From Phenylobacterium sp. CCH9-H3 (GTDB lineage Bacteria > Pseudomonadota > Alphaproteobacteria > Caulobacterales > Caulobacteraceae), in NCBI RefSeq assembly GCF_001557235.1, contig NZ_LSJI01000094.1, forward strand, positions 1 through 63,649: 63,649 bases of DNA, read 5' to 3'. Within the stretch, counting starts at the first letter, position 1. Each line of letters starts with the position of its first letter. The position numbers and the translations under genes were made by a program. This document shows positions 7,381 through 36,261 of the stretch, piece by piece. The notes beneath the pieces were generated by a model. It did no database searches, was not told where the DNA came from, and saw only the letters and a program-made list of their open reading frames with translations.

Positions 7381-7487
7381 GGCGGGGTCCCTCCGTTGTT
7401 GGTTGGCGCAGACGATAGGGCCTGGCCGCTTGACCGTCATCCGGGCGGCGCCTCTAGTTCGCGCCAACGAAAAGCGGGAGGACGACG

Positions 7488-8231: not shown

Positions 8232-8312
8232 CAGGCTAGAGGAAGCGCGTGGCAGCGCGGACCTGGGCATGATTCGCGCCTTCGCAGCTCTCCAGACGCT
8301 GCTCCCCCGCAT

Positions 8313-18268: not shown

Positions 18269-18856
18269 CTATCCCACCGGCGGCTCCAACCTCTTCGCCA
18301 GCTCGATCACCCGCGCCGCAAGCCCGCCCAAAAGCTGCGCCGGCAGGGCCTCCTTCAGCGCCCAGTTCTCGTCGAAGGTGCCGTGGGCGAACGGCACCAG
18401 CACCTGCTCCGTCGCCACCACCGTCTGGATGGTCCCCAGGATCTGGCGCATGTGGGTGATACCGCGCAGACCGCCGAACGGGCTGATCGAGGCGGCCATC
18501 AACCCCGCCACCTTGCCCCGGAAGGCGCTCAACGCCACCAGGGTCTCGCCGTCGGTCGGCCGCGACGCCCAGTCGATGGCGTTCTTCAGCACGCCGCTGA
18601 CCGAGCCGTTGTATTCCGGCGTGGCGATCAGGAAACCGTGGTGGGCGCGGAAGAGGGCCTTCAGCTCCCGCGCCGCAGGGGGAAAGTCGGACACCTCCAG
18701 GTCGCCGTCGTAGAGCGGCAGGGCGAAGTCCTTCAGCCTGATCTCGGTCACCTCCGCGCCGCGCGCACGCGCCTCCTTCACCGCCAGGGCGAGCAGGGCC
18801 TGGTTGAACGATCCGTTGCGGGTGCTGCCGGCAAAAGCGAGGAGCTTGACGGTCAT
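18269..18856 (-). CDS. NADPH-dependent FMN reductase family protein
   Basis: 195-residue flavodoxin-like fold. The FMN phosphate loop is FAGSTRNGSFNQALL and the ATPEYNGSVSGVLKNAIDWASRP signature defines the ChrR/ArsH/SsuE group, which reduces FMN or quinones with NAD(P)H. It ends close to the hydrolase operon on the opposite strand. The MarR gene lies 10 bp upstream on the same strand, so the two probably form a redox-stress operon (MarR first). Confidence 0.92.
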   Translation of the reverse strand: MTVKLLAFAGSTRNGSFNQALLALAVKEARARGAEVTEIRLKDFALPLYDGDLEVSDFPPAARELKALFRAHHGFLIATPEYNGSVSGVLKNAIDWASRPTDGETLVALSAFRGKVAGLMAASISPFGGLRGITHMRQILGTIQTVVATEQVLVPFAHGTFDENWALKEALPAQLLGGLAARVIELAKRLEPPVG

Positions 18857-18866
18857 GAGAGTTCCA

Positions 18867-19346
18867 TCACGCGGCGGAATCCGAGGGGACGTCTTCGCCG
18901 ACGTCGGCGGCGAGGTTGCGGCCGACTTGGGTGAGGGCCTTGCGCAGGACGTCGATCTCAGCCGGGGTCAGGCCGGCCAGGGCCAGGGCATTGACCTCGG
19001 CGACCGCGGGCAGCAGCACCGCCTCCAGGGCCTGGGCCTGCGAGGTCAGGAAGACATGGACCTTGCGCCGGTCCTCGACGCTCTTCTGGCGAGTGACGAA
19101 GCCCGAGCGCTCGAGGCTCTTGAGCGCGATCACGGTGGTGGGCTCGCGCATGCCGACGCGGCGGGAAAGCTCGCGCTGGGTGAGGCCATCCTCTCGCCAC
19201 AGCACCCGCAGGAACCGCCACTGGCCGCTGGAGACGCCATGCGGCGCCGTACGCACCTCCAGCGCCCGGGAGAAGGCCCGGAAGGCGATGCGGGTCAGAT
19301 AGCCGATGCTGTTGGTCGGGTCGGCGTAGAATTTGGTGTCGCTCAT
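18867..19346 (-). CDS. MarR-family transcriptional regulator
   Basis: 159 residues with the MarR winged helix: VSSGQWRFLRVLWREDGLTQRELSRRVGMREPTTVIALKSLERSGFV followed by the wing DRRKVHVFLT. Start MSDTKFYADPTNSIGY is chosen; upstream in-frame residues are arginine-rich and atypical. It probably represses itself and the flavin reductase, and perhaps the divergent methyltransferase. An imperfect inverted repeat GCAAT-N6-AATGC lies in the intergenic region near 19424-19440. Confidence 0.9.
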   Translation of the reverse strand: MSDTKFYADPTNSIGYLTRIAFRAFSRALEVRTAPHGVSSGQWRFLRVLWREDGLTQRELSRRVGMREPTTVIALKSLERSGFVTRQKSVEDRRKVHVFLTSQAQALEAVLLPAVAEVNALALAGLTPAEIDVLRKALTQVGRNLAADVGEDVPSDSAA

Positions 19347-19459
19347 ACCTCGACCATTCCACCGCGGCCCGGGCGCGGCAATCGCCACCCCGGCTTCATT
19401 GACAGGCTTGGAGCCTCTGCCTACGCAATAGATAGAATGCTAATCTTTTGGAACCCCTC

Positions 19460-20512
19460 ATGCTGCTTCCCGGCCTGCCGCTGCTGCCCACGACCATCGT
19501 CGGCAGCTATCCCCAGCCGGATTGGCTGATCGATCGGGAGGGTCTGAAAAGCCGGCTTCCGCCACGCGTGCGGGCGCAGGAGCTCTGGCGGATCAAGGAC
19601 CCGCGCGAACTGGCCGACGCGCAGGAGGCGGCGACTCTGGTGGCGATCAGCGACCAGAAGCTGGCGGGCATCGACATCGTGGGCGACGGCGAGATGCGGC
19701 GGGAGAGCTATTCGAACCGCCTGGCCACGGCCCTGGGCGGGATCGAGACGGACCCGCCGGGAATGGCCATGGATCGCACGGGCGCCATGAACCCAGTGCC
19801 GCGGGTGGCCGGGCCGATCCGGCGTCTCGGGCCCATCGAGGCTCAGGATGCGGCGTTCCTGAAGGCGCGGGCGGGCGGGCCGGTGAAGATCACCATCCCC
19901 GGCCCCTTCACCATGACCCAGCAGGCGCAGAACGATCACTATACGGACGCGCGCAGCCTGGCGCTCGACTATGCGGACGCGGTCAACGCCGAGATGCGCG
20001 ACCTGTTCGCCGCCGGCTGCGACATCGTCCAGCTTGACGAGCCCTATCTGCAGGCCAAGGCCGAAGAAGCGCGCAGCTTCGCCATCGAGGCGATCAACCG
20101 GGCGGTGAAGGGCGTAGGCGGGATCACCGCCCTGCACATCTGCTTCGGCTATGCGCACGTCCACCAGGGGGCGTCCAAGCCCGGCGGCTATGCCTTCCTC
20201 GAGGAGCTGGAAGCCTCGGACGTGGACATCATCTCCATCGAGGCCGCCCAGCCGAACCTGGATCCGCAGATCCTGCGCGAACTGCCGACCAAGCACATCA
20301 TGTATGGGGTCATCGACCTGAACGACCCCAACGTCGAGGGCGCCGAGACCGTGGCCCAGCGCATCCGCCGCGCGCTGCCGTATATCGACGCCGAGCGCCT
20401 GATCGTCGCCCCCGATTGCGGGATGAAGTACCAGAGCCGGGCGGTCGCGTTCGGCAAGCTGAAGGCGATGTCGGACGGCGCGGCGATAGTGCGGCGGGAG
20501 CTGGCGGGATAG
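19460..20512 (+). CDS. Cobalamin-independent methionine synthase-like methyltransferase
   Basis: 350 residues, equal to the C-terminal catalytic half of MetE only. It begins PTTIVGSYPQPDWL, the canonical MetE_C start. The zinc ligands are visible as His and Cys in LHICFGY and Cys in APDCGMKY, and VQLDEPYLQ is also conserved. Such stand-alone proteins transfer methyl groups from folate or other donors and often occur in catabolic clusters. ATG 19460 is preferred over a TTG at 19448. It is divergent from MarR. Confidence 0.88.
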   Translation: MLLPGLPLLPTTIVGSYPQPDWLIDREGLKSRLPPRVRAQELWRIKDPRELADAQEAATLVAISDQKLAGIDIVGDGEMRRESYSNRLATALGGIETDPPGMAMDRTGAMNPVPRVAGPIRRLGPIEAQDAAFLKARAGGPVKITIPGPFTMTQQAQNDHYTDARSLALDYADAVNAEMRDLFAAGCDIVQLDEPYLQAKAEEARSFAIEAINRAVKGVGGITALHICFGYAHVHQGASKPGGYAFLEELEASDVDIISIEAAQPNLDPQILRELPTKHIMYGVIDLNDPNVEGAETVAQRIRRALPYIDAERLIVAPDCGMKYQSRAVAFGKLKAMSDGAAIVRRELAG

Positions 20513-20591
20513 GCCGCGCCAAGCCGCCTCGTCCGAATCCACTGTTACGCCGTAAAAGGAGTTCCCACGCTTCACCGGAGAACACCTTCGA

Positions 20592-21113
20592 ATGCCCGCC
20601 TCGCGTTTCGTCCCCTTGCTGGCCCTGACGCTCGTCCTGCTGGGGCCGACGCCCGTCTTCGCCGAGACCACGGCCGATCAGATGCTGGCCACGGCCCAGA
20701 AAATTCGCGCCAGCGTCGAGCAGCTGAAGGACAAGCTGCCGGCCGAACAGCAGGCCCAGATGCTCAAGCAGGCCGACGAGATCGAGCAACAGGTGCGGGA
20801 AGGGGCCTATGCCGGCGCGACTGCGCCGCCGAGGGAGCCGAGCCTGTCGGAGCGCCTCATGGCCACGCACGGTCGCCTGGAATGGCTATCCGCCGAGGCC
20901 GCCTGCGCCGGCTATACACTGGAGAACTATTCGACCTTCCGCTTCTCCAGCGCCATCAACGAACGCGACACCCATTGCCGCAACGCCTACGGCCACTGGG
21001 CGACCTACCTTCGCGTGACCCGCAGTGGCGAGGGGGAGGAGGCGGCGGAACAGGCGCTATTCTACTACGACGCGGCGGCGCGGCGGGCGGTGACGTTCTA
21101 CGGGCGGAAGTGA
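20592..21113 (+). CDS. Periplasmic protein of unknown function
   Basis: 173 residues. A Sec signal (FVPLLALTLVLLGPTPVFAE) is followed by a helical, coiled-coil-like stretch (MLATAQKIRASVEQLKDKLPAEQQAQMLKQADEIEQQV). A C-terminal domain has two cysteines (AACAGYTLENYS and RDTHCRNAYGHW) that could form a disulfide. No family is recognised. It is followed after 1 bp by the ankyrin gene, so the two are cotranscribed. Confidence 0.75.
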   Translation: MPASRFVPLLALTLVLLGPTPVFAETTADQMLATAQKIRASVEQLKDKLPAEQQAQMLKQADEIEQQVREGAYAGATAPPREPSLSERLMATHGRLEWLSAEAACAGYTLENYSTFRFSSAINERDTHCRNAYGHWATYLRVTRSGEGEEAAEQALFYYDAAARRAVTFYGRK

Positions 21114-21114
21114 C

Positions 21115-21846
21115 ATGCACAAGACCTTGCTCGCCTCAGCGGCCCTGGCGTTGAGCCTCACGCTCGCCGCCCCTGCGACCGCGCAGACCGACGCAGCGCT
21201 GCGCGTGGCCATCTTGCAAGACGATCCGGGGGCCATCGCCGGGGCCATCCGGGCCGGCGCCGATCCGCGCGCCGTCGGGGAAAACGGCTCGCCGCTCGCG
21301 ATCGCAGCAATGTCGGGAAAGGCGCGCGCGGTGCGCGCGCTGCTCGACCTTGGCGCCGATCCCGCGGCCCCGGGCCCGAATGGCGGGAACGCCGTGAGCG
21401 CCGCATTCTTCGCCATGAACGGCGTGGCCTTGCTCGGGCGCGACGAGGCGCCGGAACCGGCCCGGAGGGCAGCGGCGCTGGACGTGTTGCGCGCGATCGC
21501 CGCCCGGGGCGTGGGGCTTGATGTCCTGATGCGGCTGGGGCCCACCAGCATGACGCCGCTGATGCAGGCGGCCGAGGCCGGCGCCGTGGACGTGGTGCAG
21601 ATCCTCCTGCAGGCCGGCGCCAATCCGAACGCCGTCAACGGCGGCCGCTATTCGGCGCTGGACTATGCCGTGGACCGGGCGCCGTCGTGGGCCGCACTGC
21701 CCCAAGATGGGCGCGCGGAGATCGTCCGCGCGCTGCTAGCGAAGGGCGCGCGCAGAGATCGGGCGGGCGCAGACGGGGTTACGCCCCTGGCCCGGGCGCG
21801 CCGGACCGGGAATGCGGAGGTGATCGCCGCGCTCGAGGGTGGTTGA
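21115..21846 (+). CDS. Exported ankyrin-repeat protein
   Basis: 243 residues. A signal peptide (LASAALALSLTLAAPATAQ) is followed by about five ankyrin-type repeats: GAIAGAIRAGADPRAVGENG, SGKARAVRALLDLGADPAA, EAGAVDVVQILLQAGANPNAV, RAEIVRALLAKGARRD and GVTPLARARRTGNAEVIAAL. It is probably a periplasmic protein-binding scaffold. It is coupled to the preceding periplasmic protein, its likely partner. Its ligand is unknown. Confidence 0.88.
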   Translation: MHKTLLASAALALSLTLAAPATAQTDAALRVAILQDDPGAIAGAIRAGADPRAVGENGSPLAIAAMSGKARAVRALLDLGADPAAPGPNGGNAVSAAFFAMNGVALLGRDEAPEPARRAAALDVLRAIAARGVGLDVLMRLGPTSMTPLMQAAEAGAVDVVQILLQAGANPNAVNGGRYSALDYAVDRAPSWAALPQDGRAEIVRALLAKGARRDRAGADGVTPLARARRTGNAEVIAALEGG

Positions 21847-21863
21847 GCCTCAGGCCTCTTCCA

Positions 21864-22073
21864 TCAGCCAGGCCGCGAGCAGGCCCGGTCGGAAATCTCC
21901 TGGCCGCGGGCCTGCGGGACGTCCCGCTCGTTCAAGGCCGCCAGGGCGCGCCAGCGGGCGGCCGACAGCTCGTGCTTCTCGCGCACATTGTCCAGGACGC
22001 AGGTTTCGGCGAGCGCGGTCGCTTCGGCGGCGCGCGTGTTGTAGGCGGCCGATTTCATGTCGCGGGTAAGCAT
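21864..22073 (-). CDS. Small conserved-type protein, unknown function
   Basis: 69 residues (or 64 from the internal ATG at 22058, MKSAAYNTRAAEATALAE). The helical pattern with RAAEATALAETCVLDNVREKH then SAARWRALAALNE resembles short alphaproteobacterial proteins annotated as hypothetical, which share the LDNVRE...AAxxWRxMA pattern. It is probably a small cytosolic helical-hairpin protein. No partner gene is evident. Confidence 0.5.
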   Translation of the reverse strand: MLTRDMKSAAYNTRAAEATALAETCVLDNVREKHELSAARWRALAALNERDVPQARGQEISDRACSRPG

Positions 22074-22281
22074 CGCGTCAGCGCCCTCCGACGGGGGCCA
22101 TCCGCGCAGCAGCGCGGAGTTTTGAGGCAGGTGGGCTCATGAGACCTCGCAGCGGCGCCGCGCCGAGAGGGATCGACCGCTTGGCTGGCGGCACGCGCCC
22201 GGCGGCGCTTGTCGTAGATGGGGTGTCGCGGCCCCGGTAGCCAGGGCGCCACCAACAGCTTCGCCATGCGTTTGCAGGGGA

Positions 22282-23157
22282 ATGGACGCCTCGCCAGCCC
22301 CCGAACGTTACGAGGCCGTCGTCGTGGGCGCGGGCCCGGGCGGGCTCACGGCCGCAACCTACCTCGGTCGGTTCCGCCGCCGCGTGCTGGTGTTGGACGG
22401 CGGCCCCTCGCGCGCCACCTGGATCCCAGAAAGCCACAACACCCCTGGCTTCCCGCGAGGCATCGGCGGGGACGAGCTGCTGGCCCGGCTGCGGGACCAG
22501 GCGGAGGAGTATGGCGCCGTCATCCGCCCCGGCCGCGTGGAACGGCTCCAGCCCATCCCCGAGGGATTTCAGCTGGAGGTCGGCGGCGTGTGGTTCGAGG
22601 CGCCCACGGCCCTGCTCGCGACGGGCGTGGTCGATCGTCTGCCCGACGTGCCGGGTCTGGAGGCTGCGATCAAAAGGGGTCAAGTCCGCATGTGTCCCAT
22701 CTGCGACGCCTATGAGGCCACGGGCGCGAAGATCGCAGTACTGGGCGCCGGGCCGCTGGCCCAGAGGGAGGCGGACTTCCTGCGCACCTACAGCCCGAAC
22801 GTTACGGTCCTGATCGTGGGCGAGGCCGAGGAGGCGCCTTCCGACGCAGCGCGCATCTCCCTTTCCGACCTGCAGTTCGAGGGCGACCAGGTGCGGCTAT
22901 CGGACGCCGGCGGTGAAACGCGCTTCGACCACCTGTACCTGGCCCTCGGCTGTGCGAGTCAGACTGCCCTCGCCCTCGCGCTCGGCGCCGGCCAGGACGA
23001 CAGGGGCGACCTTGTGGTGGACTCGCACCAGATGACGAGCGTCGACGGCCTCTATGCTGTCGGCGATGTCGTGCGGGGCCTGAACCAGATCGCGGTGGCC
23101 GCCGGCGAGGCGGCGATCGCGGCGACGGCCATGCACAACCGCCTGCGCAAGGCCTGA
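22282..23157 (+). CDS. Thioredoxin-reductase-like FAD/NAD(P) oxidoreductase
   Basis: 291 residues of the pyridine nucleotide-disulfide oxidoreductase class II type. The FAD dinucleotide motif is VVVGAGPGGLTAATYLGRF, the redox-active pair is CPIC in VRMCPICDAY, the second Rossmann motif is VLGAGPLAQREADFL, and the FAD closure is VDGLYAVGDVVRGLNQIAVAAGEAAIAA. Unlike TrxB, the first glycine-rich motif is followed by VLVLDGGPSRA, as in the TrxR-like family outside core thioredoxin systems. It transfers electrons from NAD(P)H to a disulfide partner that is not encoded nearby. Confidence 0.9.
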   Translation: MDASPAPERYEAVVVGAGPGGLTAATYLGRFRRRVLVLDGGPSRATWIPESHNTPGFPRGIGGDELLARLRDQAEEYGAVIRPGRVERLQPIPEGFQLEVGGVWFEAPTALLATGVVDRLPDVPGLEAAIKRGQVRMCPICDAYEATGAKIAVLGAGPLAQREADFLRTYSPNVTVLIVGEAEEAPSDAARISLSDLQFEGDQVRLSDAGGETRFDHLYLALGCASQTALALALGAGQDDRGDLVVDSHQMTSVDGLYAVGDVVRGLNQIAVAAGEAAIAATAMHNRLRKA

Positions 23158-23170
23158 CCGCCGCGGCCAT

Positions 23171-23875
23171 TCAGCCCCGTTCGGCCAGCCAGGCGGCAAG
23201 CAGGCGGTTGGTGGTCTGGGGCTTTTCCAGGGTGGGCAGGTGGCCGCAGTCGGGGACCTCCTCGAAGCGGGCATTTGGAATTTCGCCGACGATTTCGTCC
23301 ACGTGGGCTGGGGTGGTGATCCCGTCCTGGGCGCCGCGGATGACCAGGGTCGGGACGCGGATCGCGCTCAGCGAGGGGCGGCTGTCCGGACGGGTCATGA
23401 TCGCGCGCTGCTGGCGCAGGAAGGTCTCGGCGCCGGTGTCGGCGGCCATCCGGCGCACCACGGTCAACAGCGGCGCGTCTTCGCGGCGCGCGGGGTGGAC
23501 CAGGATGGGGATACGCTCTTCCACCACCTCGACGAACCGGCCGTCCTCCACCAGGCGGATATAGCCCTGGCGACGCTCCGTCTGGGCCGGGCCGTCGTTG
23601 GGGGCCAGGGTGGCGATGAGCGTGAGGCTGATCACCCGCTCCGGCGCCCGGCGCAGGACCTCGAAGGCGGTGAAGCCGCCCATGGCGTGGGCGACCAGGT
23701 GAAAGCGGTCCGGCGCTTCATCCAGCAAGCGGGCCCCCATGCCTGCGATGGTCTCGTCCCGGGTGTGGTCGGCGAAACGCAGATCGTAGTCGTCGGCCAG
23801 GGCCACCGCCTGGGGCGCCCAGCAATCGACGGTGAGCAGCTGGCCGGAGGCGAAGACGGCGGTGGGACGGGGCAT
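23171..23875 (-). CDS. Alpha/beta-hydrolase-fold protein lacking the nucleophile serine
   Basis: 234 residues with an alpha/beta-hydrolase fold. The acid (AQDGITTP) and the histidine (PDCGHLPTLEKP) remain, but the nucleophile elbow reads VAHAMGGF, so the usual Ser of GHSMGG is Ala64. Ordinary ester hydrolysis is therefore unlikely; a lyase, a cofactor-free reaction or a binding role is possible. It is the last gene of a four-gene operon (3 bp after the dehydrogenase) with a kinase and an enolase paralogue. Confidence 0.85.
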   Translation of the reverse strand: MPRPTAVFASGQLLTVDCWAPQAVALADDYDLRFADHTRDETIAGMGARLLDEAPDRFHLVAHAMGGFTAFEVLRRAPERVISLTLIATLAPNDGPAQTERRQGYIRLVEDGRFVEVVEERIPILVHPARREDAPLLTVVRRMAADTGAETFLRQQRAIMTRPDSRPSLSAIRVPTLVIRGAQDGITTPAHVDEIVGEIPNARFEEVPDCGHLPTLEKPQTTNRLLAAWLAERG

Positions 23876-23878
23876 CGT

Positions 23879-24826
23879 TCAGACCACTTGGTTCAGGAGC
23901 GGCTCGCCGGCCTGCAGGCGGCGGATGTTCTCGAACGCGGCGGCCAGGCTGCGGTCGAGGGTCTCGGGCGTCAGCCAGGCTTGGTGCGGGGCCAACACCA
24001 CATTGGGCAGGCCGAGCAGCGGGTTGTCCGGGTCCACCGGTTCGCGATCGAAGACGTCCAGCCCCGCGCCGCGGAGGTGACCCGAGACCAAGGCCGAGAT
24101 CAGGGCTGGCTCGTCCACCAGCCCGCCGCGAGCGGTATTGATCAGGATCGCGCCGGGCTTCATGGCGGCCAGGGCGCCTGTGTCGATCATCCGCTCGGTC
24201 TGCGGCGTCAGGGGCAGGTGCAGGGAGACGATGTCGGCTGTCTCCAGCAGCTTTTCCAGGGGCACGAAGCGGCCGGGCAGATCCGGCTTGGCGCTGCGGG
24301 CGGTGTAGATCACCGAGGCGCCCAGGGCCTCCAGCGCCGCCCCAAGCCGCGAGGCCGAGCCGCCGTAGCCCACGAAACCCACCGTGCGGCCGCAGAGCTC
24401 GCCGACGCCGTCGATGAGATCGGGGTCCGGGGTCCAGCCGTGCCCCCGGCGGGTGAGCGGGTCGAGGTAGGACAGCCGGCGCAGCACCGACAGCATCAGA
24501 GCCAGCGCCATCTCGGCCACAGCCTGGCTGTTGGTCCCGGGCATGTTGGAGACGGCGACGCCCGCGGCGCGGCAGGCCTCCAGGTCGATGGTGTTGACCC
24601 CGACCCCCAACTTCTGGACCAGCCGCAGCCCTGGCGCGCCGGCGATCATCGCGGCGGTGACCGGCTTCAGCACATGCAGCAGGACCTCGGCGTCCGCGAT
24701 TTCCCGGGCGAAGGCCGCGTCGTCGAACTCGTCGGCCACCACCGCCTCGACCCCCGCGGCGCGGGCATGGTCGGCCAGGGCCGCACGGAAGCCGGCGCTG
24801 GCGCGATAGTGCAGGACCGCCTTCAT
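23879..24826 (-). CDS. D-isomer-specific 2-hydroxyacid dehydrogenase
   Basis: 315 residues of the D-2-hydroxyacid dehydrogenase family (hydroxypyruvate/glyoxylate reductase group). The catalytic Arg-Glu-His are in [25 protein letters not shown] and VLAPHQAWLTPE. The nucleotide motif is TVGFVGYGGSASRLG. Arginine in YTARSAKP after the second strand could favour NADP(H), which is inference. Its start overlaps the enolase stop (ATGA), so translation is coupled. It probably interconverts a 2-keto acid and a D-2-hydroxy acid in the pathway of this operon. Confidence 0.92.
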   Translation of the reverse strand: MKAVLHYRASAGFRAALADHARAAGVEAVVADEFDDAAFAREIADAEVLLHVLKPVTAAMIAGAPGLRLVQKLGVGVNTIDLEACRAAGVAVSNMPGTNSQAVAEMALALMLSVLRRLSYLDPLTRRGHGWTPDPDLIDGVGELCGRTVGFVGYGGSASRLGAALEALGASVIYTARSAKPDLPGRFVPLEKLLETADIVSLHLPLTPQTERMIDTGALAAMKPGAILINTARGGLVDEPALISALVSGHLRGAGLDVFDREPVDPDNPLLGLPNVVLAPHQAWLTPETLDRSLAAAFENIRRLQAGEPLLNQVV

Positions 24827-26124
24827 TCGAGCCCCGCCGCGACGCTTGCCGAAAATGCCGAAGGGCCGGCGAAGGCCGCGTCCGCGCCCATGGCCTCCTC
24901 GATCCGCAGCAGCTCGTTCCACTTGGCCATCCGCTCCGAGCGCGAGAAGCTGCCGACCTTGATCTGGCCCGCGTCCCAGCCGGTGGCGAGGTGGGCGATG
25001 GAGAGGTCCTCGGTCTCGCCGGACCGCGCTGAGACGATGGCACCCCAGCCGAGGTCCTTCGCCGCGTCCAGGGCGGCCTTGGCGCGGGTGACCGTCCCGG
25101 CCTGGTTCACCTTCACCAGCACCGCATTGCCGGCCTGGGCGGCGGCGGCCTTGCGGACCCGGTCGGCGTTGGTGACCAGGATATCGTCGCCGATGAGCTG
25201 CACCCGCTCCCCGTAGGCGCGGGTGGCGAGGGCGAAGCCTTCGAGGTCGTCCTGGCTGACCGGATCCTCGATGGACAGGATCGGATAGCGGCGCACCCAG
25301 TCGGCCACCCGCTCGACCATGGCCTCGCGGGCGAACTCGGCGCCGTCCAGGCCCAGGCGGTAGCGCCCGTCACCGCCGTCCAACTCGTTGGCGGCCACAT
25401 CCAGGGAGATGAAGACGTCCTCGCCAGGGCGGTGACCAGACATCTCGATGGAACGCACCAGGACGCCGAGGGCGTCCTCGTTGGAGTCGAACATCGGCCA
25501 CCAGCCGCCCTCGTCGGCGGCGCCGGCCAGGCGGCCAGTGTCCTCCATCAGCCGGCCCGCGGCGCGGAAGACGTCGGCGGTGATCTCGAACGCCTCGCGG
25601 ATCGTGGCGGCGCGCGGCGTCATGATCATGAAGTCCTGGACGTCCGTCCGCCGGCCGGCGTGAGCGCCGCCGCCGAAGATCTGGATTTCGGGCAGCGGGA
25701 TCCGCACGCGCCGGCCCTGCGCCAGGTGCGCCCAGAGCGGCAGGCCCTCCGCGGCCGCGGCGGCGTGCAGGGCGGCCAGGGAGACCGCCACCGTAGCGTT
25801 GCCGCCCAGCCGGGCGAGGTTCGGCGTGCCGTCGGCGGCGATCATGGCTTCGTCCAGCCCCGCCTGCTCCGCGGCGTCCCGGCCAGTCAGCAGTCGGGCG
25901 ATCTCGCCGTTCACCGCCGCCACGGCCCGCTCGACGCCCAGGCCGCCGAAACGCTCGCCCCCGTCGCGCAGGTCGATGGCCTCGTGCGCGCCGCGCGAGG
26001 CGCCGGCGGGGGCCATGGCCCGGCCTGTCGCGCCGCCGGCCAGGGTCACCTCGGCTTCGACGGTCGGACGGCCGCGGCTGTCCCAGATCTGGCGGCCGCG
26101 GATCGCGGCGATGGTCGTCTTCAT
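24823..26124 (-). CDS. Divergent enolase paralogue
   Basis: 433 residues aligning end to end with enolase. Kept residues: Ser43 (loop 1), His155, Glu205, metal ligands Asp242, Glu286 and Asp313, Lys338 and Lys389. Changed residues: the phosphate-contacting His of SHRSGETED is Ala366 (VSARSGETED), the Glu of DIQEFM is Asp164, and loop PSGAST is PAGASR. A housekeeping phosphopyruvate hydratase would not tolerate these changes. It probably catalyses a related Mg-dependent elimination on another (phospho)hydroxyacid. It is coupled by ATGA overlaps to the kinase upstream and the dehydrogenase downstream. Confidence 0.9.
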   Translation of the reverse strand: MKTTIAAIRGRQIWDSRGRPTVEAEVTLAGGATGRAMAPAGASRGAHEAIDLRDGGERFGGLGVERAVAAVNGEIARLLTGRDAAEQAGLDEAMIAADGTPNLARLGGNATVAVSLAALHAAAAAEGLPLWAHLAQGRRVRIPLPEIQIFGGGAHAGRRTDVQDFMIMTPRAATIREAFEITADVFRAAGRLMEDTGRLAGAADEGGWWPMFDSNEDALGVLVRSIEMSGHRPGEDVFISLDVAANELDGGDGRYRLGLDGAEFAREAMVERVADWVRRYPILSIEDPVSQDDLEGFALATRAYGERVQLIGDDILVTNADRVRKAAAAQAGNAVLVKVNQAGTVTRAKAALDAAKDLGWGAIVSARSGETEDLSIAHLATGWDAGQIKVGSFSRSERMAKWNELLRIEEAMGADAAFAGPSAFSASVAAGLE

Positions 26125-27125
26125 CTCGTCCCCAAAGCTTCCTTCCAGACGGCGGCCAGGGCCGCCATGGCCGGCGAGCCTTCCGCCAGCAGGCGCTTGG
26201 CCACGTCGCGGACGAACCCCTTGTCCTCCGGGGTCCGTACGTAGTCGGCGGGCGATTTGCCGTCCACGCGGGCCAGCAGGATCGCGGCGGTCAGCGGCGC
26301 GGCGCGGCCGTCGAGGTCGGCGGGGCTCTCCCAGTCGACCCCGGGCAGGTAGGCGCGCTGCAGGGCGTAGAAGGCGTCCAGGTAGGCCGGCGCGTGCTCG
26401 GGCTTCCATACGCACTTCAGCAGCAGGTGCGCCGAGCAGAAGGCGAGGTCGAAGGCCGGGTCGCCGTACCAGGCGCACTCGGCGTCCAGCAGCACCGGGC
26501 CATCGGGGCCGTGCAGGATGTTCTTGGGGCTGACGTCGCCGTGGACCAGGGCGATCCGCGCCGCCGCCGTCCGGTCCGCCAGCGGGATCAGGCGATGCGC
26601 GAGGGCAGGGTGGACCTCGGCGCAGCGGCGCAGGAAGGGGGCGAGCCGCAGGTCCTCGAACAGGGCCGTCGTTTCGAACCGCGCCGCGATCTCGGAGGAG
26701 CCCGCCGTGCCGGCGTGGATCGTGGCCAGCATCCGGCCCACCTGGCCGGCGAACCCGGCGTCGACCCGGCCGGCGGCCAGTTCCGACTTCCAGACGGGGT
26801 GGGCCTGCGGGTCGTAGAAGCTCATGACGAACAGGTTCCGGGACCTGTCTTCGAACAGGATTTCGGGAACCGCGGCCCCGGCGAACCGGCGGGCGGTGCG
26901 GAGCCATTCCACCTCATACTGCGAGCGTATGACCGGGGCGCGCCAGTCGGCGGCGACGCGGAGCTTGGCCAAGGCGCGCTTGACGCAGACGGGGCCGGCC
27001 GGGGTGTCCAGGCGGTAGACGTCGCTGGAGACGCCGCCGGTCAGGCACTCCAGGCGCGGCCGGGCGTCCGGCGGCAGATAGCCCGCCGCCTTCAGGGCCT
27101 CGACGATTTCGGTTTCCGATGGCAC
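26121..27125 (-). CDS. APH/choline-kinase-fold phosphotransferase
   Basis: 334 residues from GTG 27125 (VPSETEIVEALKAAGY); a longer frame to 27182 would run through a palindromic operator. Kinase landmarks: LTGGVSSDVYRL (nucleotide loop), Lys49 in VCVKRA, the catalytic loop His195-Gly-Asp197...Asn202 in VHGDVSPKNIL, and the metal motif Asp214-Ala-Glu in LLDAECAWYGDPAFDLAF. It transfers ATP phosphate to a hydroxyl of a small metabolite. It is the first gene of the kinase-enolase-dehydrogenase-hydrolase operon, so the phosphorylated product may feed the enolase paralogue. Confidence 0.9.
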   Translation of the reverse strand: MPSETEIVEALKAAGYLPPDARPRLECLTGGVSSDVYRLDTPAGPVCVKRALAKLRVAADWRAPVIRSQYEVEWLRTARRFAGAAVPEILFEDRSRNLFVMSFYDPQAHPVWKSELAAGRVDAGFAGQVGRMLATIHAGTAGSSEIAARFETTALFEDLRLAPFLRRCAEVHPALAHRLIPLADRTAAARIALVHGDVSPKNILHGPDGPVLLDAECAWYGDPAFDLAFCSAHLLLKCVWKPEHAPAYLDAFYALQRAYLPGVDWESPADLDGRAAPLTAAILLARVDGKSPADYVRTPEDKGFVRDVAKRLLAEGSPAMAALAAVWKEALGTR

Positions 27126-27175
27126 GGTATAGATAGTTAGAACCCTAAGCGAAATTGGTCCAGCGGCGCCGGGAA

Positions 27176-27194
27176 GCGTCAATCAAATTGACGC
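27176..27194. promoter_or_regulatory. Operator A (GTCAA-N5-TTGAC) with overlapping promoter
   Basis: GCGTCAATCAAATTGACGC is a perfect 8+3+8 inverted repeat. Its right arm supplies a -35 box TTGACG (27188-27193) with TTTACT at 27211-27216 after 17 bp, directed at the VOC gene. It also sits about 50 bp upstream of the divergent kinase start. Similar sites occur at 28131 and 32197. Confidence 0.75.
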
Positions 27195-27259
27195 CCCACC
27201 TCGCCAGGCGTTTACTGGAGCCAACGAAGATCGGGCTTGCGCCCGACAGGAGGACGTTC

Positions 27260-27889
27260 ATGGCCACCCCGACCAACCGCGAGTTCGACATCCGCGGCGT
27301 GAACCATCTGGCCCTGGTCTGCAAGGACATGGCGCGCACGGTGGAGTTCTACCGCGACGTCCTGGGGATGCCCCTGATCAAGACGCTGGACCTGCCGGGC
27401 GGGCGCGGCCAGCACTTCTTCTTCGATATCGGCAACGGCGACTCGCTGGCGTTCTTCTGGTTCCCGAACGCGCCGGAGGCGGTCCCCGGGATCTCGGCGC
27501 CGGCCGACCTGCCCGGCGGCGGCGACATCCGCTCGGCCCACGGCTCGATGAACCACATCGCCTTCAACATCCCCGCCGAAAAGTTCGACGCGTACGTGGA
27601 GAAGCTGAAGGCCAAGGGCGTGAAGCTGGGCGTGGTGCTGAACCACGACAATTCCGAGAGCCAGGTGTCCGCCGAGGTCACCGACGACGTCTTCGTGCGT
27701 TCGGTCTACTTCTGGGACCCGGACGGTGTGATGCTGGAGTTCGCCTCCTGGACGCACACTGGCTTCACCGAGAAGGACGTGGCGCACGAGGCGGTCGACG
27801 CCGAGGGACGGAAATCGCGCCCGGTGGTCCTCAAGGCCGAACAGGCTCTGGCCGCGAACGACGCCAAGGCGCTCGAAACCGCGAAATAG
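27260..27889 (+). CDS. VOC-family metalloenzyme (dioxygenase/glyoxalase type)
   Basis: 209 residues with a paired beta-alpha-beta-beta-beta fold. Probable metal ligands are His16 (VNHLALV), His99 (SMNHIAF) and Glu160 (GVMLEFA), the 2-His-1-Glu triad of extradiol dioxygenases and related isomerases. ATG 27260 follows AGGAGG at 27248-27253. It is expressed from operator A, divergent from the kinase/enolase operon, so it probably works in the same pathway. Ring cleavage or isomerisation cannot be told apart from sequence. Confidence 0.87.
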   Translation: MATPTNREFDIRGVNHLALVCKDMARTVEFYRDVLGMPLIKTLDLPGGRGQHFFFDIGNGDSLAFFWFPNAPEAVPGISAPADLPGGGDIRSAHGSMNHIAFNIPAEKFDAYVEKLKAKGVKLGVVLNHDNSESQVSAEVTDDVFVRSVYFWDPDGVMLEFASWTHTGFTEKDVAHEAVDAEGRKSRPVVLKAEQALAANDAKALETAK

Positions 27890-28228
27890 GCCGCCCCCGC
27901 AGACCCGCTCCCGTAGCGGAACCCACCGCGCGGGAGCCGATTGACAACAACCCTTAGCAATCTAATGATACGGGCATCGCCCATGCGGGAGGCGCGGACG
28001 TGTCCCTTCGCCGCCGATCTCATCATCCCGAGCTCCGCCGCGCCCCGCATCCGTCTGAAACCCGCAACTACCGAGGCGCGAACGACGCGTCCGCACGACC
28101 GTACCTAGAAGCCGCGCCTCGGGCTCAAAACGTCAAGTAAATTGACACTTGACGCCACTCGGCGCAGATATTCGCGACAACGTTCGACCAACAGAACGCC
28201 AAGAACCATTCCAGAGGGGGAAGCGGCG
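27890..28228. promoter_or_regulatory. Intergenic control region upstream of the TonB receptor
   Basis: No gene is seen. It holds operator B (28131-28148) and, further upstream, a second possible promoter TTGACA (27941-27946) with TAATGA (27963-27968) at 16 bp spacing. The long AT-richer leader suggests regulated transcription of the receptor. Confidence 0.45.
28131..28148. promoter_or_regulatory. Operator B (GTCAA-N5-TTGAC) before the TonB receptor
   Basis: CGTCAAGTAAATTGACAC, same arms and spacing as operator A. It contains -35 TTGACA (28142-28147), with AGATAT 18 bp further on as a plausible -10. It lies about 80 bp upstream of the receptor start. Confidence 0.72.
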
Positions 28229-30457
28229 ATGATCGCCCGTATTCTGCTATCCACGACGATGCTGGTGAGCCTGTGCGCGGGCCAGGCGATGGCCGCCGAG
28301 GCCGACGAAGCGCAGCCGACCCTGGGCGAGGTGGTCGTCACCGCCCAGAAGCGGACCGAGAAGCTGCAGGACGTGCCGATCTCGATGGAGGTCGTGTCGG
28401 GCGAAAAGCTCTCGGACTTCGCCACCAACGACTTCAAGCAGATGGTGAAGTTCACGCCGAACGTGTCGGTGGAGACCACCGCGGGCAACGACACCATCTA
28501 CATCCGCGGCTTCGGCTCGCCGCCGGCCAACTTCTCGTTCGACCAGGCGGTCAGCCTCTACATGGACGGCGTCTACGCCGGCCGTAACCGCCAGGCCCAG
28601 GCGCCGTTCTTCGATCTGCAGCGGGTGGAAGTGCTGCGCGGCCCGCAAGGCGCCCTGTTCGGCAAGAACACGCCGGCCGGCGCGGTCAGCATCGTCTCGG
28701 CCGGCCCCACCTCGTCGTTCGAGGGCGGCGTGACCGCGCTCTACAACTTCGACCTCGAGGGGCCAGAAGTGTCCGGCTACGTCTCGGGCCCGATCACCGA
28801 CACCCTGGGCGCGCGCCTGGCGGTGAAGCTCGTCGACCAGGACGGCTACATCAAGAACCTGGCGACGGGTAAGCACGACCCGGCCAACAAGATGGCCCTG
28901 GCGCGCCTGACCCTGCGCTATGCGCCGACCGAGACCTTTGACTACACCCTGAAGACCGAGTTCTCGGATCGCGAGGTGCGCGGCGGCCTGACGGTGTCGA
29001 GCCCGCTGACCACGGGCCAGCAGCCGCACAAGACCCGTTACCTGCAGCAGTCGGCCCTGGGGCCGGAGGGCACGAAGGCGACCTCCTGGCTGGTGTCGGG
29101 CACCGGCAACCTGTCGCTGGGCGACTTCACCCTGACCTCGGTCACCGGCTATTCGTTCTTCCGCTCGAACATCATCAACGGCTTCGACCAGACGATCCCG
29201 GGCGCGGGCGGGGCGGTCACGCCCAACAGCGTCTACAACAGCTATCCCGAGCACTTCCGGCAGTGGTCGCAGGAGATCCGCCTGCTGTCGCCCACGGGGC
29301 GGACGTTCGAGTACGTGGTCGGCGCGTACTACGACACCGCGCTCTACCAGCTGACCCAGCTGGGCGGGTTCAACATCGCCTCGCTGAACTACTTCGGCCT
29401 GCTCAACACCGAGTTCCGCCAGCGCAGCGAGACGATTTCCGCCTTCGCCCAGGGCACGTTCAACGTCACCGACGACCTGAGGGTGATGGGCAGCCTGCGC
29501 TACACCACCGTCGACAAGCGCGGCCACTTCTACGGCAAGCTGCTGTACGGGCCCTTCGCCCTGCGGCCGGTGAACACCGTGGCCAACGGCAAGATCAACA
29601 ACGAGGACAACTGGGACCCCTCGGTCACCCTCCAGTACGACATCGCCCCGCAGATCATGGTCTACGCCACCTATGGGCGCGGCTCGAAGTCGGGCGGCTT
29701 CGTCTCGAACACCTACGGCACGACCAGCGCGACCTTCGCCTACAAGCCGGAGAAGTCCGAGAACATCGAGGCCGGCGTCAAGTCGACGCTGGCGGACGGG
29801 CGCGTGGTGCTGAACGTGTCGGTCTACGACACCAGCTTCAAGGACCTGCAGGTCTCGGTCTACAACCCGGTGATCTCGGCCTACCAGACGGGCAACGCCG
29901 CCAGCGCGAGTTCGAAGGGCATCGAGGGCTCGGCGGCGTTCTACCCGTTCCGCGGCTTCGACTTCACCTTCGCGGCCGCCTACCAGGACGCCAAGTACGA
30001 CGACTATCCGGGCGCGGCGTGCCTGGCGACGCAGCCGATCACCGAATGCAACCCGGCGGTCCCGGCCAGCATCGCGGCCAACAACATCAAGGGCGCGCCG
30101 CTGCCCTACACGTCGAAGTTCAGCTTCAGCGCCCAGGGCCACTACCGGTTCGAGTTCGCCAACGAGATGGCGCTGGACACCACCATCGCGCTGCACGGCC
30201 GCTCGAAGTACTTCGACAGCGACAACCAGAGCCCGCTGTACGGCCGCCAGAAGGGCTACGCCAAGCTGGACGCCCGCATCCAGTACGGTCCGATGGACGA
30301 GCGCTGGCACGTGGCCGTGGTCGGCAAGAACCTGAACGACGAGCTGACCACCGGCAGCGCCTTCAACCTGCCCGCACCGATCACCGCCGCCCCCCGGGCG
30401 ATCCTCTACCTGGAGGAAGGCCGCAGCATCGCGGTCGAGGCGGGGCTGAAGTTCTAG
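28229..30457 (+). CDS. TonB-dependent outer-membrane receptor
   Basis: 742 residues. A signal peptide (TTMLVSLCAGQAMAA) is followed by LGEVVVTAQKRTEKLQDVPI, the plug motif RVEVLRGPQGALFGKNTPAGAVSIVS, and a barrel ending SIAVEAGLKF with the terminal Phe. ATG 28229 is preceded by GAGGGGGAAG, the same ribosome-binding site as the 14.3 kb receptor. Operator B places it in the regulon of the kinase/enolase operon and MFS transporter. It probably imports the substrate of this island across the outer membrane with TonB-ExbBD energy. Confidence 0.93.
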   Translation: MIARILLSTTMLVSLCAGQAMAAEADEAQPTLGEVVVTAQKRTEKLQDVPISMEVVSGEKLSDFATNDFKQMVKFTPNVSVETTAGNDTIYIRGFGSPPANFSFDQAVSLYMDGVYAGRNRQAQAPFFDLQRVEVLRGPQGALFGKNTPAGAVSIVSAGPTSSFEGGVTALYNFDLEGPEVSGYVSGPITDTLGARLAVKLVDQDGYIKNLATGKHDPANKMALARLTLRYAPTETFDYTLKTEFSDREVRGGLTVSSPLTTGQQPHKTRYLQQSALGPEGTKATSWLVSGTGNLSLGDFTLTSVTGYSFFRSNIINGFDQTIPGAGGAVTPNSVYNSYPEHFRQWSQEIRLLSPTGRTFEYVVGAYYDTALYQLTQLGGFNIASLNYFGLLNTEFRQRSETISAFAQGTFNVTDDLRVMGSLRYTTVDKRGHFYGKLLYGPFALRPVNTVANGKINNEDNWDPSVTLQYDIAPQIMVYATYGRGSKSGGFVSNTYGTTSATFAYKPEKSENIEAGVKSTLADGRVVLNVSVYDTSFKDLQVSVYNPVISAYQTGNAASASSKGIEGSAAFYPFRGFDFTFAAAYQDAKYDDYPGAACLATQPITECNPAVPASIAANNIKGAPLPYTSKFSFSAQGHYRFEFANEMALDTTIALHGRSKYFDSDNQSPLYGRQKGYAKLDARIQYGPMDERWHVAVVGKNLNDELTTGSAFNLPAPITAAPRAILYLEEGRSIAVEAGLKF

Positions 30458-30524
30458 TCCAGACCAAGGCGGCGTGCGGTCCCTCCGGGCCGCCGCCGCC
30501 CGTCGCGTGTGCGCGGGGAAGCCG

Positions 30525-31238
30525 ATGATCGACGTCCACTTCGTGCCGACGCCGAATGGGCACAAGGTCAGCATCATGCTGGCTGAGACCGGCCTGCCGC
30601 ACCGCCTGATCCCGTACGACATGCTGGCCGGCGATCACCTGAAGCCCGAGTACCGGCGGGTGAACCCCAACCATCGCCTGCCCGCGATCCTGGACCACGA
30701 CCCCATCGGCGGCGGCCCGCCGTTCGCCGTCATGGAGTCCGGCGCCATCCTGCTCTACCTGTCGGAGAAAGCCGGCGGCGCCTTCGTGCCCGCCGACCCG
30801 CGCGGCCGTTCGCTCTGCCTGCAGTGGCTGATGTGGCAGATGTCGGGGCTGGGTCCGTCCCACGGCCAGGCGCACCACTTCGTCCGCTACGCCCCCGAGG
30901 GCCAGGACTATGGCGTCGCCCGCTACACCAACGAGGCCAAGCGCCTGCTGGCGGTCCTGGACCGGCGCCTGGGCGAGGCGGAGTACCTGGCCGGAGAATA
31001 TTCGGTGGCCGACATGGCGGCCTGGCCCTGGATCCGCGCCACGCGCGCCATCGCCCTCGGCCTGGAGCCCTATCCGAACATCGGCCGCTGGTTCGCCGCG
31101 GTCGGCGCGCGGCCCGCCGTGATCCAGGGCACCGAGGTCAAGAACGCGCCGAACCTGTCGAGCTTGCGGCCGGCCCTCACCCCAGAGCAGTGGTCCAACC
31201 TGTTCGGCGAGAACATGCTGAAGAGCAGCGAGGCGTGA
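30525..31238 (+). CDS. Glutathione S-transferase, nu class (YghU/YfcG-like)
   Basis: 237 residues. The N-terminal thioredoxin-like domain starts MIDVHFVPTPNGHKVSIML; the Thr-Pro-Asn stretch replaces the Ser/Tyr of classical GSTs, as in YfcG/YghU disulfide-bond oxidoreductases. The glutathione-binding VMESGAILLYL follows, then a helical domain with MWQMSGLGPSHGQAHHF. A close paralogue lies at 34477, so the cluster carries two copies. It probably conjugates or reduces glutathione adducts of an imported aromatic or halogenated compound. Confidence 0.9.
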   Translation: MIDVHFVPTPNGHKVSIMLAETGLPHRLIPYDMLAGDHLKPEYRRVNPNHRLPAILDHDPIGGGPPFAVMESGAILLYLSEKAGGAFVPADPRGRSLCLQWLMWQMSGLGPSHGQAHHFVRYAPEGQDYGVARYTNEAKRLLAVLDRRLGEAEYLAGEYSVADMAAWPWIRATRAIALGLEPYPNIGRWFAAVGARPAVIQGTEVKNAPNLSSLRPALTPEQWSNLFGENMLKSSEA

Positions 31239-31307
31239 GGCTCGTGCCCTGCTCCACGTCGCATCGCGGCGCGCGCCGCAGGCGCAACAGGTTCGAAACA
31301 CCAAGAC

Positions 31308-31377
31308 CACGAAGATCACAAAGGGCGCGAAGGGGCGGAGCCTCTTGGTGGCCTTCGTGTCCTTTGTGGTCTTCGTG
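31308..31377. repeat. Dispersed inverted repeat (GACCACAAAGG type)
   Basis: Two 26-nt arms at 31308-31333 and 31352-31377 match at 23 of 26 positions around an 18-nt loop. The core words are CACGAAGA and CACAAAGG. A related single arm (22 of 26) is at 36276-36301. It lies between converging genes, so it may also end transcripts. Confidence 0.7.
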
Positions 31378-31411
31378 TCTCATGGGCGCTGACGCGCCAA
31401 AGGACTCCGCC

Positions 31412-32141
31412 TCACCCGCCCTCGTCGTGGCCCCACTGGCGTTCGATCCGGCCATCCACATGGCGCACGGCCACCCAGTCGCCGCCGGGAAGGCTGTCAT
31501 CCTCGACCATGTCGATCACCGCGGCGGCGATGTCCTCCGGCATGCACATGGCGTTGCTGGCCAGGATCGGGGCCATCCAGGGCGCGTAATCGCCATCCGC
31601 CCCCGTCTTCTTCAGGATCGGCGTCTTGGTCAGGCCCGGCAGGACGCCGCAGACGCGGACGTTCCAGCTCTCCTTCAGCCCGGCGCAGCAGCGGGTGAAC
31701 ATCATCACGCCGGCCTTGGTGGTGGCGTACATGGCGTCGGAGAAGCCCTTGCCCAGGGCGACCGTGGAGACGGTGTTCACGATGACGCCGCCGCCGCGGT
31801 CCGATGATCCATTGGAGGCGCTCGATCGGCGCCTCGGGGAACTGCGGCGCGCCCATCACGACCCCGGCGTTGTTGTAGAGCACGTCATAGCCGCCGGCCT
31901 CGGCCAGGGCGGCCATCCAGGCCTGAACGGCCTGGAGGTCGGCGAGGTCAACCGTCCAGGCGCGGACGCGGGTCTGATAGCCGAGCTCGTCGATGAGGCG
32001 CGCGGTCTCGCCCATGCCCGAGGCGTCCACGTCGGCGATGTGGATCACGCAGGCCCGCCGCTGGGCGAAGGCCAGGGCCGCGGCCCGGCCGATCCCCGCC
32101 GCCGCCCCCGTGACGACGCACGTACTGCCCTCGATATCCAT
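31412..32141 (-). pseudogene. Short-chain dehydrogenase/reductase, broken by deletion/frameshift
   Basis: The N-terminal half reads MDIEGSTCVVTGAAAGIGRA (cofactor motif) through YDVLYNNAGVVMG to ERLQWIIG. The frame then shifts near 31796-31803 into GGGVIVNTVSTVALGKGFS, MYATTKAG (catalytic Tyr and Lys) and the C-terminus. Intact SDRs have about 20-25 residues between these points, so a small deletion changed the frame. Both halves are otherwise well preserved, suggesting recent inactivation. It is divergent from the MFS gene across operator C. Confidence 0.8.
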
Positions 32142-32196
32142 GGCGTTCCATCCCTCCGTTCGTTTGGTCGCCAGCCTAGTCCGAGCAGAGCCGAAA

Positions 32197-32214
32197 CGTA
32201 AACTTGATTGACAC
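32197..32214. promoter_or_regulatory. Operator C (GTAAA-N5-TTGAC) before the MFS operon
   Basis: CGTAAACTTGATTGACAC matches operators A and B with one arm mismatch. It includes -35 TTGACA (32208-32213) and a weak -10 TAGGGT (32230-32235) with 16 bp spacing. It lies between the broken SDR and the MFS gene. Confidence 0.62.
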
Positions 32215-32273
32215 TACGGGACCCCGCCATAGGGTTGCCGGCAAGGCGCGAAACAGCGCCGAGAGGGAGCGAC

Positions 32274-35211: not shown

Positions 35212-35224
35212 AGAGGAGACCGTC

Positions 35225-35614: not shown

Positions 35615-35622
35615 GGAAGCCC

Positions 35623-36261
35623 ATGCCCGTCCTGCGCCAGGTCCCGCGTTACGAAGTCACCTCCGAGGTCGTGAAGGCCTATTACGACCGCCTGTTCGGC
35701 CCCGACCGCGACCCGGTGGCGAGCCCCGGCACCGCCACCGGCACGCCCGGCGACTGGTGGACCGTGTTCGCCATCGCCCCGGACATCTTCAAGCACGCCG
35801 TGGACGGGTTCGCCGTCTATCGCCACCCGGATCGCAAGCTGGACCCGGTGCTGCGCGAGCTGGGCCAGACCCGCGCCGGCTGGGTGCAGGGCAGCCAGTT
35901 CGTCTTCTCCCAGCACTGCAAGTCGCTGCGGGGCCTGGGCGTCTCGGACGAGAAGATCGCGGCCATCCCGCACTGGGCCGTCTCGGACGTGTTCGACGAG
36001 AAGGAGCGGGCGGTGCTGGCCTATGCCGACTGCCTGACCTCGGGCGCCGGGCGCACGCCGCTGGCGGTGTTCGAGAAGCTGCGCACGTTCTGGGGCGACG
36101 AGGAGATCTTCGAGTTCACCTACATCACGACGCTCTACGCCATGCACGCCGTCATCACCCGGGCCCTGCGCATGGAGTACGACAACCGCGAGGACCCCAT
36201 CGTCGAGGTGGCGGCGCCCGAGGGCTTCAACGCTTCGGACTTCCTGAGCCCGAACCGGTAG
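35623..36261 (+). CDS. Carboxymuconolactone decarboxylase-family protein
   Basis: 212 residues with an AhpD-like helical fold. The family core is present as GWVQGSQFVFSQHCKSLRGLGVSDEKI. The CxxC redox pair of AhpD is absent (Ser and Val at those positions) while the following His is kept, as in non-redox CMD proteins. It therefore probably acts as a decarboxylase/lactone enzyme or binding protein and not as a peroxidase partner. It is the last gene of the MFS operon, 8 bp after SnoaL. Confidence 0.82.
   Translation: MPVLRQVPRYEVTSEVVKAYYDRLFGPDRDPVASPGTATGTPGDWWTVFAIAPDIFKHAVDGFAVYRHPDRKLDPVLRELGQTRAGWVQGSQFVFSQHCKSLRGLGVSDEKIAAIPHWAVSDVFDEKERAVLAYADCLTSGAGRTPLAVFEKLRTFWGDEEIFEFTYITTLYAMHAVITRALRMEYDNREDPIVEVAAPEGFNASDFLSPNR

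Follow-up and report, generated by a model that had tools for sequence, protein, structure and literature searches.

A kinase-linked enolase clade with a rebuilt substrate site probably marks an undescribed route of hydroxy acid breakdown

Enolase (phosphopyruvate hydratase, EC 4.2.1.11) is, to our knowledge, regarded as an enzyme of a single reaction. A segment of the serine cycle comprises hydroxypyruvate reductase, glycerate 2-kinase, enolase and phosphoenolpyruvate (PEP) carboxylase. LxmKY-type dehydratases combine a kinase with a lyase; this lyase acts on the phosphate of peptide Ser or Thr and is not an enolase. Here, we analyzed a stretch of 63,649 nucleotides from Phenylobacterium sp. 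CCH9-H3 (contig NZ_LSJI01000094.1; the whole stretch is hereafter called the window), in which an enolase paralogue is encoded in a packed module together with a methylthioribose-kinase-like protein, a D-2-hydroxyacid dehydrogenase and an alpha/beta-fold protein. Found in many bacteria of soils and plants and in a small number of salt-loving archaea, this kinase-linked, altered enolase probably represents an undescribed route for the breakdown of a hydroxy acid. A search of the open-licence literature found no paper on a kinase–enolase module, which is weak evidence because several queries demanded many terms at once.

The module was compared with the described systems. Its enolase resembles enolase in family score, Mg ligands, the base Lys338, the acid Glu205, the phosphate site Arg367/Ser368 and Ser43, whereas it carries Asp at the Glu165 equivalent, Ala in place of His366 and Ala in place of the Gly before the DEGG motif, and lies on the opposite side of a tree branch. 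Unlike housekeeping enolase, it is an accessory enzyme with a dedicated kinase at nearly every locus. Unlike methylthioribose kinase (MtnK), to which it is 13–18% identical, the module kinase is paired with an enolase. Rhizobial clusters hold the same enzyme types as the serine-cycle segment, but the module kinase belongs to another family than the classical one, the enolase contact is changed and the window gave no PEP carboxylase match. The module also resembles L-rhamnonate-type routes, whose last enzyme is an FAH hydrolase (2,4-didehydro-3-deoxy-L-rhamnonate hydrolase), in that FAH and SDR genes follow the kinase–enolase pair in three loci (L082, L083 and L122); however, the FAH protein falls below the model cut-off, and the window has the alpha/beta-fold protein instead, with no FAH match.

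The four genes lie on the minus strand (27125-23171) in the order kinase, enolase paralogue, dehydrogenase and alpha/beta-fold protein. All four frames are open, each with a terminal stop codon. The kinase and enolase genes overlap by 4 bp, as do the enolase and dehydrogenase genes, and 3 bp separate the latter from the alpha/beta gene. A sequence-only reading of the window had claimed this packing and had named the families as APH kinase, enolase, 2-hydroxyacid dehydrogenase and alpha/beta fold; both claims were borne out, the families by matches to PF01636, TIGR01060, 2-Hacid_dh and Abhydrolase.

The enolase paralogue scored 463.1 bits against the curated model TIGR01060 (cut-off 300), so that automatic annotation would name it phosphopyruvate hydratase. 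The solved structures closest to it are 4yws, 4z17 and 4z1y, which we take to be the enolase of Chloroflexus aurantiacus. In the C. aurantiacus enzyme, Glu165, Glu206, Lys338, Arg367 and Ser368 bind 2-phosphoglycerate and PEP (PMC4450660). In the alignment to the best PDB match, these correspond to D164, E205, K338, R367 and S368 of the window; four of the five direct contacts are therefore kept (E205, K338, R367 and S368), and Glu165 has become Asp164. The His preceding Arg367 is also replaced, by Ala366. The changed positions are presumably E168 and H373 in yeast numbering.

These changes were then followed across relatives. The homologue listing scored 7,999 candidates and gave at least 120 homologues, and the locus collection took the best 80 of 537 confirmed places. 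D164, A203 and A366 (D/A/A) were fixed in 182/182 rows of one clade, and E/G/H stood at these positions in all 23 other enolases. The 182 and 23 rows include repeated places (e.g., L078 and L108) and required a match of at least 360 residues, which dropped L139 and other cut copies. Here and below, counts include related genomes and are thus not independent events. S43, H155, E205, D242, E286, D313, K338, R367, S368 and K389 were invariant in the 182 rows; that is, the metal ligands, the acid/base pair E205/K338 and the phosphate-binding R367/S368 are present in the window and in every clade row. Most of the clade has Arg159 (165/182) and Trp209 (168/182), which none of the 23 other enolases carries; both residues are missing in the deep clade branches L084, L085, L135 and L136. 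The sequence-only reading had reported D164, E205, K338, K389, A366 and the loop 1 motif PAGASR correctly. PAGASR proved only partly a clade feature, as loop 1 varies at residues 40 and 44: Ser43 occurs in 182/182 rows, Ala40 in 166, and residue 44 is Arg in 119 or Thr in 55. Judged from the aligned residues, the catalytic machinery of the D/A/A enolase is intact and part of its substrate site is rebuilt. The rebuilt part (the 164/366 region) presumably faces the C3 hydroxyl. The fixed change of a direct 2-phosphoglycerate contact, together with the replacement of His by Ala, argues for a substrate other than 2-phosphoglycerate.

A maximum-likelihood tree separated 76 D/A/A rows from 17 E/G/H rows by one branch with a Shimodaira–Hasegawa-like approximate likelihood ratio test (SH-aLRT) support of 100. 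The tree was a quick search without bootstrap, and archaeal and eukaryotic housekeeping enolases were not included. Within this sampling, the D/A/A enolase, including that of the window, falls outside the housekeeping-type rows. In addition, another enolase was found in 20/20 related genomes checked, although in two of them (G003 and G015) it was read as broken pieces. The sequence-only reading had proposed a module distinct from housekeeping enolase and had named an enolase tree, a second enolase in the genome and conservation of the gene pair as its checks; the tree and the second enolase of the related genomes agree with the proposal, and the gene pair is treated below.

The distribution of the clade is wide. 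A Streptomyces row adjoins a Paraburkholderia row in the tree (support 91), which suggests horizontal transfer. Kinase–enolase pairs are plasmid-borne in the haloarchaea Halomarina and Haladaptatus and in Persicobacter (Bacteroidota); some housekeeping-type rows come from plasmids too (L086, L222, L223 and L225). In the haloarchaeal plasmid islands L084 and L151, the genes around the pair encode several mandelate-racemase-family enzymes and an IlvC paralogue. A plasmid of Enterobacter chuandaensis (L152) encodes a very divergent enolase relative that is annotated as 'hypothetical' (6271-7542, minus strand) and transcribed divergently from a phosphotransferase/kinase gene at 7941-8996. The GDEGG motif of this enolase relative reads CEKGG, so that the acid Glu205 is replaced by Lys, and Ala366 is replaced by Gly. 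The neighboring genes resemble a biosynthetic cluster; they encode an aminotransferase, an oxidoreductase, an MFS protein and an iron-containing redox enzyme.

The window kinase has methylthioribose kinase as its nearest fold, and the fold and kinase motifs of that enzyme are present; its score against the MtnK model TIGR01767 was 55.2 bits, below the cut-off of 275. In 151 distinct enolase loci, the stretch also contained a kinase; the two genes lay on the same strand within 1 kb in 134 of these loci (127 in the order kinase–enolase and seven reversed). In the other 17, which include Paraburkholderia, Streptomyces and rhizobial clusters, they were 1.0-7.8 kb apart. Before repeats were removed, a same-strand kinase within 1 kb was found at 150 of 167 enolase loci. 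Where the stretch held no kinase, one was found elsewhere in 6/7 genomes; the seventh genome is a bin in which the enolase lies at the end of a contig. Overlaps of 4 bp recur in the window and in L082, L083, L084, L085, L150, L151, L153 and L154. A search started from the kinase alone in Hyphomicrobiales and Burkholderiales gave 70 places, with an enolase within 510 bp in 65, within 8 kb in three and none in two. Six of these places (L024, L044, L057, L139, L140 and L141) had the enolase within 510 bp in three cases and 2.6-7.8 kb away in three. A motif search in 63 stretches (64 kinase places) recovered all three signature letters in 53 and two letters in four, where the first motif was missed by the pattern; five were cut off or partial, and one lacked an enolase. 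At E 1e-30, the kinase was present in 5/296 Actinomycetota and 7/299 Pseudomonadota genomes, and at E 1e-50 in 26/297 Hyphomicrobiales and 42/300 Burkholderiales genomes; the seed genomes are counted in all four tallies. Of the five actinobacterial matches, two were weak (L137 and L138; E 1e-45 and 1e-35), showed no enolase match and were treated as outside the family. The pattern of conservation and linkage is far beyond chance, and the gene pair proposed by the sequence-only reading is widely conserved. Locus L212 carries a second, interrupted kinase copy at 6848-7843, approximately 7.5 kb from its intact kinase–enolase pair.

The partners of the pair vary. Genes were called mechanically in the 140 distinct loci that span 10 kb or more, and some calls merge or miss genes. 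The kinase was found in 134 of these loci, a 2-hydroxyacid dehydrogenase in 78, the alpha/beta protein in 38 and an FAH protein in 34. FAH and alpha/beta proteins occurred together in none of them, a mutual absence that is suggestive only as a hint, since relatives are counted. The dehydrogenase comes in two types by lineage, that of the window and a CtBP type that shares 33% identity with the window type. R233, E262 and H281, which we take to be the catalytic residues of the dehydrogenase, were each kept in at least 95% of 67 aligned rows. Its nearest solved structures are 5tx7 and 2cuk, the functional name being glycerate dehydrogenase/glyoxylate reductase; none of 21 named NCBIfam models (hydroxypyruvate/glyoxylate reductase, phosphoglycerate dehydrogenase and others) was reached at cut-off, the best score being 199.9 against 448 bits. 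In the alpha/beta protein, Ala64 replaces the Ser of the GxSxG motif in 43/43 aligned rows, and a 10-row alignment agrees; at least 95% of the aligned rows retain Asp184 and His212. The nearest named models are PcaD types, at 81 and 96 bits and far under their cut-offs. With its nucleophile lost, the protein is probably not a classical serine hydrolase, and it is a candidate for a non-hydrolytic enzyme.

Five types of cluster were distinguished. Window-like clusters of Caulobacteraceae and Sphingomonadaceae (type a) carry MarR, FMN reductase, MetE-like, VOC and CMD genes, to which Sphingopyxis or Sphingomonas relatives add LeuC/LeuD-like aconitases and AMP-binding enzymes; L041 also has a CoA-transferase III and an HMGL-like lyase. 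Clusters of Paraburkholderia, Streptomyces, Rhizobium, Rhodococcus and Sphingobium (type b) hold varying subsets of LacI, cupin, two-domain VOC dioxygenase, CMD, alcohol dehydrogenase and FAH genes, with a P450 and its ferredoxin and reductase in L081. In Paracoccus, Roseibium and one Rhizobium (type c), kinase, enolase, FAH and SDR genes stand with transporters. Type d has relatives of acid-sugar dehydratases, all below curated cut-offs (L136, L168 and L199); those of L199 belong to an operon that also encodes relatives of maltose-type ABC permeases, and in L136 an open reading frame expected to encode a sugar-binding protein matched no model. Many Burkholderiales loci (type e) have no detected dehydrogenase, FAH or alpha/beta gene. 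Directly upstream of the pair in L199 (5992-9000), we observed an RraA-family relative, an open reading frame of 99 amino acids, a further, unassigned open reading frame and a UxaA-family dehydratase-like gene.

A PEP carboxylase gene adjoins the dehydrogenase and kinase genes in five rhizobial loci (L078, L081, L117, L139 and L140); that of L081 scored 1134 bits (cut-off 815). This gene was the only PEP carboxylase found in 3/3 rhizobial genomes, which, as drafts, may be incomplete; one of the three genes was read over partial length. A module that brings its own PEP carboxylase should yield PEP or something close to it.

We therefore hypothesized, with moderate confidence, that the kinase phosphorylates and the enolase eliminates, i.e., that the module carries out a phosphorylate-then-eliminate step on a 3-substituted lactate-type acid. 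The dehydrogenase would interconvert a 3-substituted pyruvate and the D-3-substituted lactate, and the methylthioribose-kinase-like enzyme would phosphorylate the 2-hydroxyl with adenosine triphosphate (ATP). The D/A/A enolase would bind carboxylate and phosphate as enolase does; Lys338 would remove the C2 proton and Glu205, as the acid, would expel the C3 substituent, so that PEP or a 3-substituted enol phosphate remains. Rather than 2-phosphoglycerate itself, the natural substrate is probably an acid with a larger or different C3 group, which would serve as the leaving group or be retained on C3. A hydrolase-type partner, the alpha/beta-fold protein here and an FAH protein in other lineages, probably works on the carbon skeleton, either ahead of the elimination or after it. 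More tentatively, and with confidence just short of even, the whole D/A/A clade may be an enolase subfamily that acts on 2-phospho-3-X acids instead of 2-phosphoglycerate, in a beta-elimination paid for with ATP, and that is used in Pseudomonadota, Actinomycetota, Bacteroidota and haloarchaea. Such an elimination would perhaps cleave a C3 ether, amine or thioether and release PEP in catabolism; aryl-ether cleavage was considered on account of the P450 and dioxygenase genes in L081. If this is true, the clade adds a new function to a textbook enzyme family and an undescribed catabolic step. Its members are labelled enolase or phosphopyruvate hydratase in the annotated records examined, and databases file them under glycolysis; a sequence rule of Asp/Ala/Ala with a kinase nearby would correct both annotation and metabolic models.

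Several observations weigh against phosphorylation followed by elimination as a common function. The window enolase passes the curated enolase cut-off. Kinase and enolase stand without dehydrogenase, FAH or alpha/beta protein in 52/140 loci, and this, together with the dehydrogenase count, indicates that the dehydrogenase is not obligatory. The partners are very diverse (acid-sugar-type genes, an aromatic-type dioxygenase and LeuC/LeuD types), so that one common substrate is not evident. PEP carboxylase was seen in rhizobia only, in four of the 140 loci plus L139 (excluded there because its enolase is cut), and gave no match in the window. The two kinase places without an adjoining enolase are L167, at a contig end, and the interrupted second copy in L212.

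The evidence on the substrate itself points in two directions: the rebuilt site speaks against 2-phosphoglycerate, whereas a substrate close to it is favored by the PEP carboxylase of the rhizobial clusters and by the likeness of the dehydrogenase partner to glycerate dehydrogenase. The module might be a plain side entry from hydroxypyruvate through D-glycerate and 2-phosphoglycerate to PEP, similar to the serine cycle, in which the kinase would be of unusual ancestry and the enolase would still use 2-phosphoglycerate; upstream FAH proteins would then free pyruvate and glycerate from 2,4-dioxo-3-deoxy acids. The sequence-only reading had named such a route as one version of its interpretation, which the data support in part. 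The rhizobial clusters would fit the route, since dehydrogenase, kinase and enolase stand there with a PEP carboxylase that was the sole one found in three genomes; so would the name of the nearest functionally named solved dehydrogenase and the four retained ligand contacts. The same holds for the L082 FAH protein, which matched 2,4-didehydro-3-deoxy-L-rhamnonate hydrolase along its entire length (352 bits, below the cut-off of 500), and for the acid-sugar dehydratase relatives of type d and a gene annotated dgoD in L084. However, the 20 related genomes already have another enolase, which makes an accessory copy look needless, and a direct 2-phosphoglycerate contact and its neighboring His are changed in all 182 rows. 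We consider this side entry unlikely. Release of PEP from a larger 3-X-2-phospholactate, as under the phosphorylate-then-eliminate reading, would satisfy both lines.

It is less likely still that the enolase runs another reaction on the phosphorylated acid, such as phosphate elimination or enolization without elimination, with the kinase merely making a leaving group: Arg367/Ser368, the Mg-binding Ser43 and the acid Glu205 are invariant in the 182 rows, as expected if the C3 group is expelled and the C2 oxygen keeps its phosphate. A redundant housekeeping-type enolase that stands beside a kinase by chance would agree with the passed equivalog cut-off (463 vs 300 bits) and with the annotation of relatives as phosphopyruvate hydratase in public records. 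This is highly improbable, as the one-branch clade with its fixed signature and its kinase linkage across phyla and into haloarchaea speak against it, and the linkage counts contradict it. Two further candidates were set aside. Inverted stereochemistry (2-phospho-L-glycerate) is disfavored by reasoning only, since Lys338 is kept and no new base appears in the aligned motifs. Elimination of sulfite from 2-phospho-3-sulfolactate could be linked to the UxaA-family gene of L199, but no sulfite genes were noted in the annotated stretches, in which no dedicated search was made.

Features of the module and its neighborhood in the window
Feature	Position	Strand	Evidence
Kinase, methylthioribose-kinase-like branch of the APH fold, 334 amino acids, GTG start	26121..27125	-	APH PF01636
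Enolase paralogue, D/A/A clade (Asp164, Ala203, Ala366), 433 amino acids	24823..26124	-	Enolase_N/C; TIGR01060, 463 bits; signature; tree
D-2-hydroxyacid dehydrogenase, 315 amino acids	23879..24826	-	PF02826/PF00389 (2-Hacid_dh)
Alpha/beta-hydrolase-fold protein, 234 amino acids, without serine nucleophile (HAMGG)	23171..23875	-	Abhydrolase
Divergent VOC-family protein beside the kinase	27257..27889	+	PF00903; relatives of at least 50% identity in 32/226 loci
MetE-like catalytic-domain protein, kept in the same neighborhood	19448..20512	+	PF01717; relatives of at least 50% identity in 32/226 loci
Probable NADPH-dependent FMN reductase, kept in the same neighborhood	18269..18856	-	34% to the NAD(P)H-dependent oxidoreductase of the rhizobial cluster; relatives in 29/226 loci
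Probable MarR-type regulator, kept in the same neighborhood	18867..19388	-	Relatives in 31/226 loci; family read on the L013 counterpart, not on the window protein
Carboxymuconolactone-decarboxylase-like (CMD) protein, outer part of the cluster	35623..36261	+	27% to the rhizobial CMD gene; relatives in 21/226 loci

The VOC-family protein is possibly part of a wider cluster. The neighborhood at 18269-36261 of the window is common to Phenylobacterium and Sphingopyxis, which belong to different orders. Around the module, it comprises genes for the FMN reductase, the MarR-type regulator, the MetE-like domain, the VOC protein, a SnoaL-like protein and the CMD-like protein, and its sharing suggests a larger, exchanged catabolic island.

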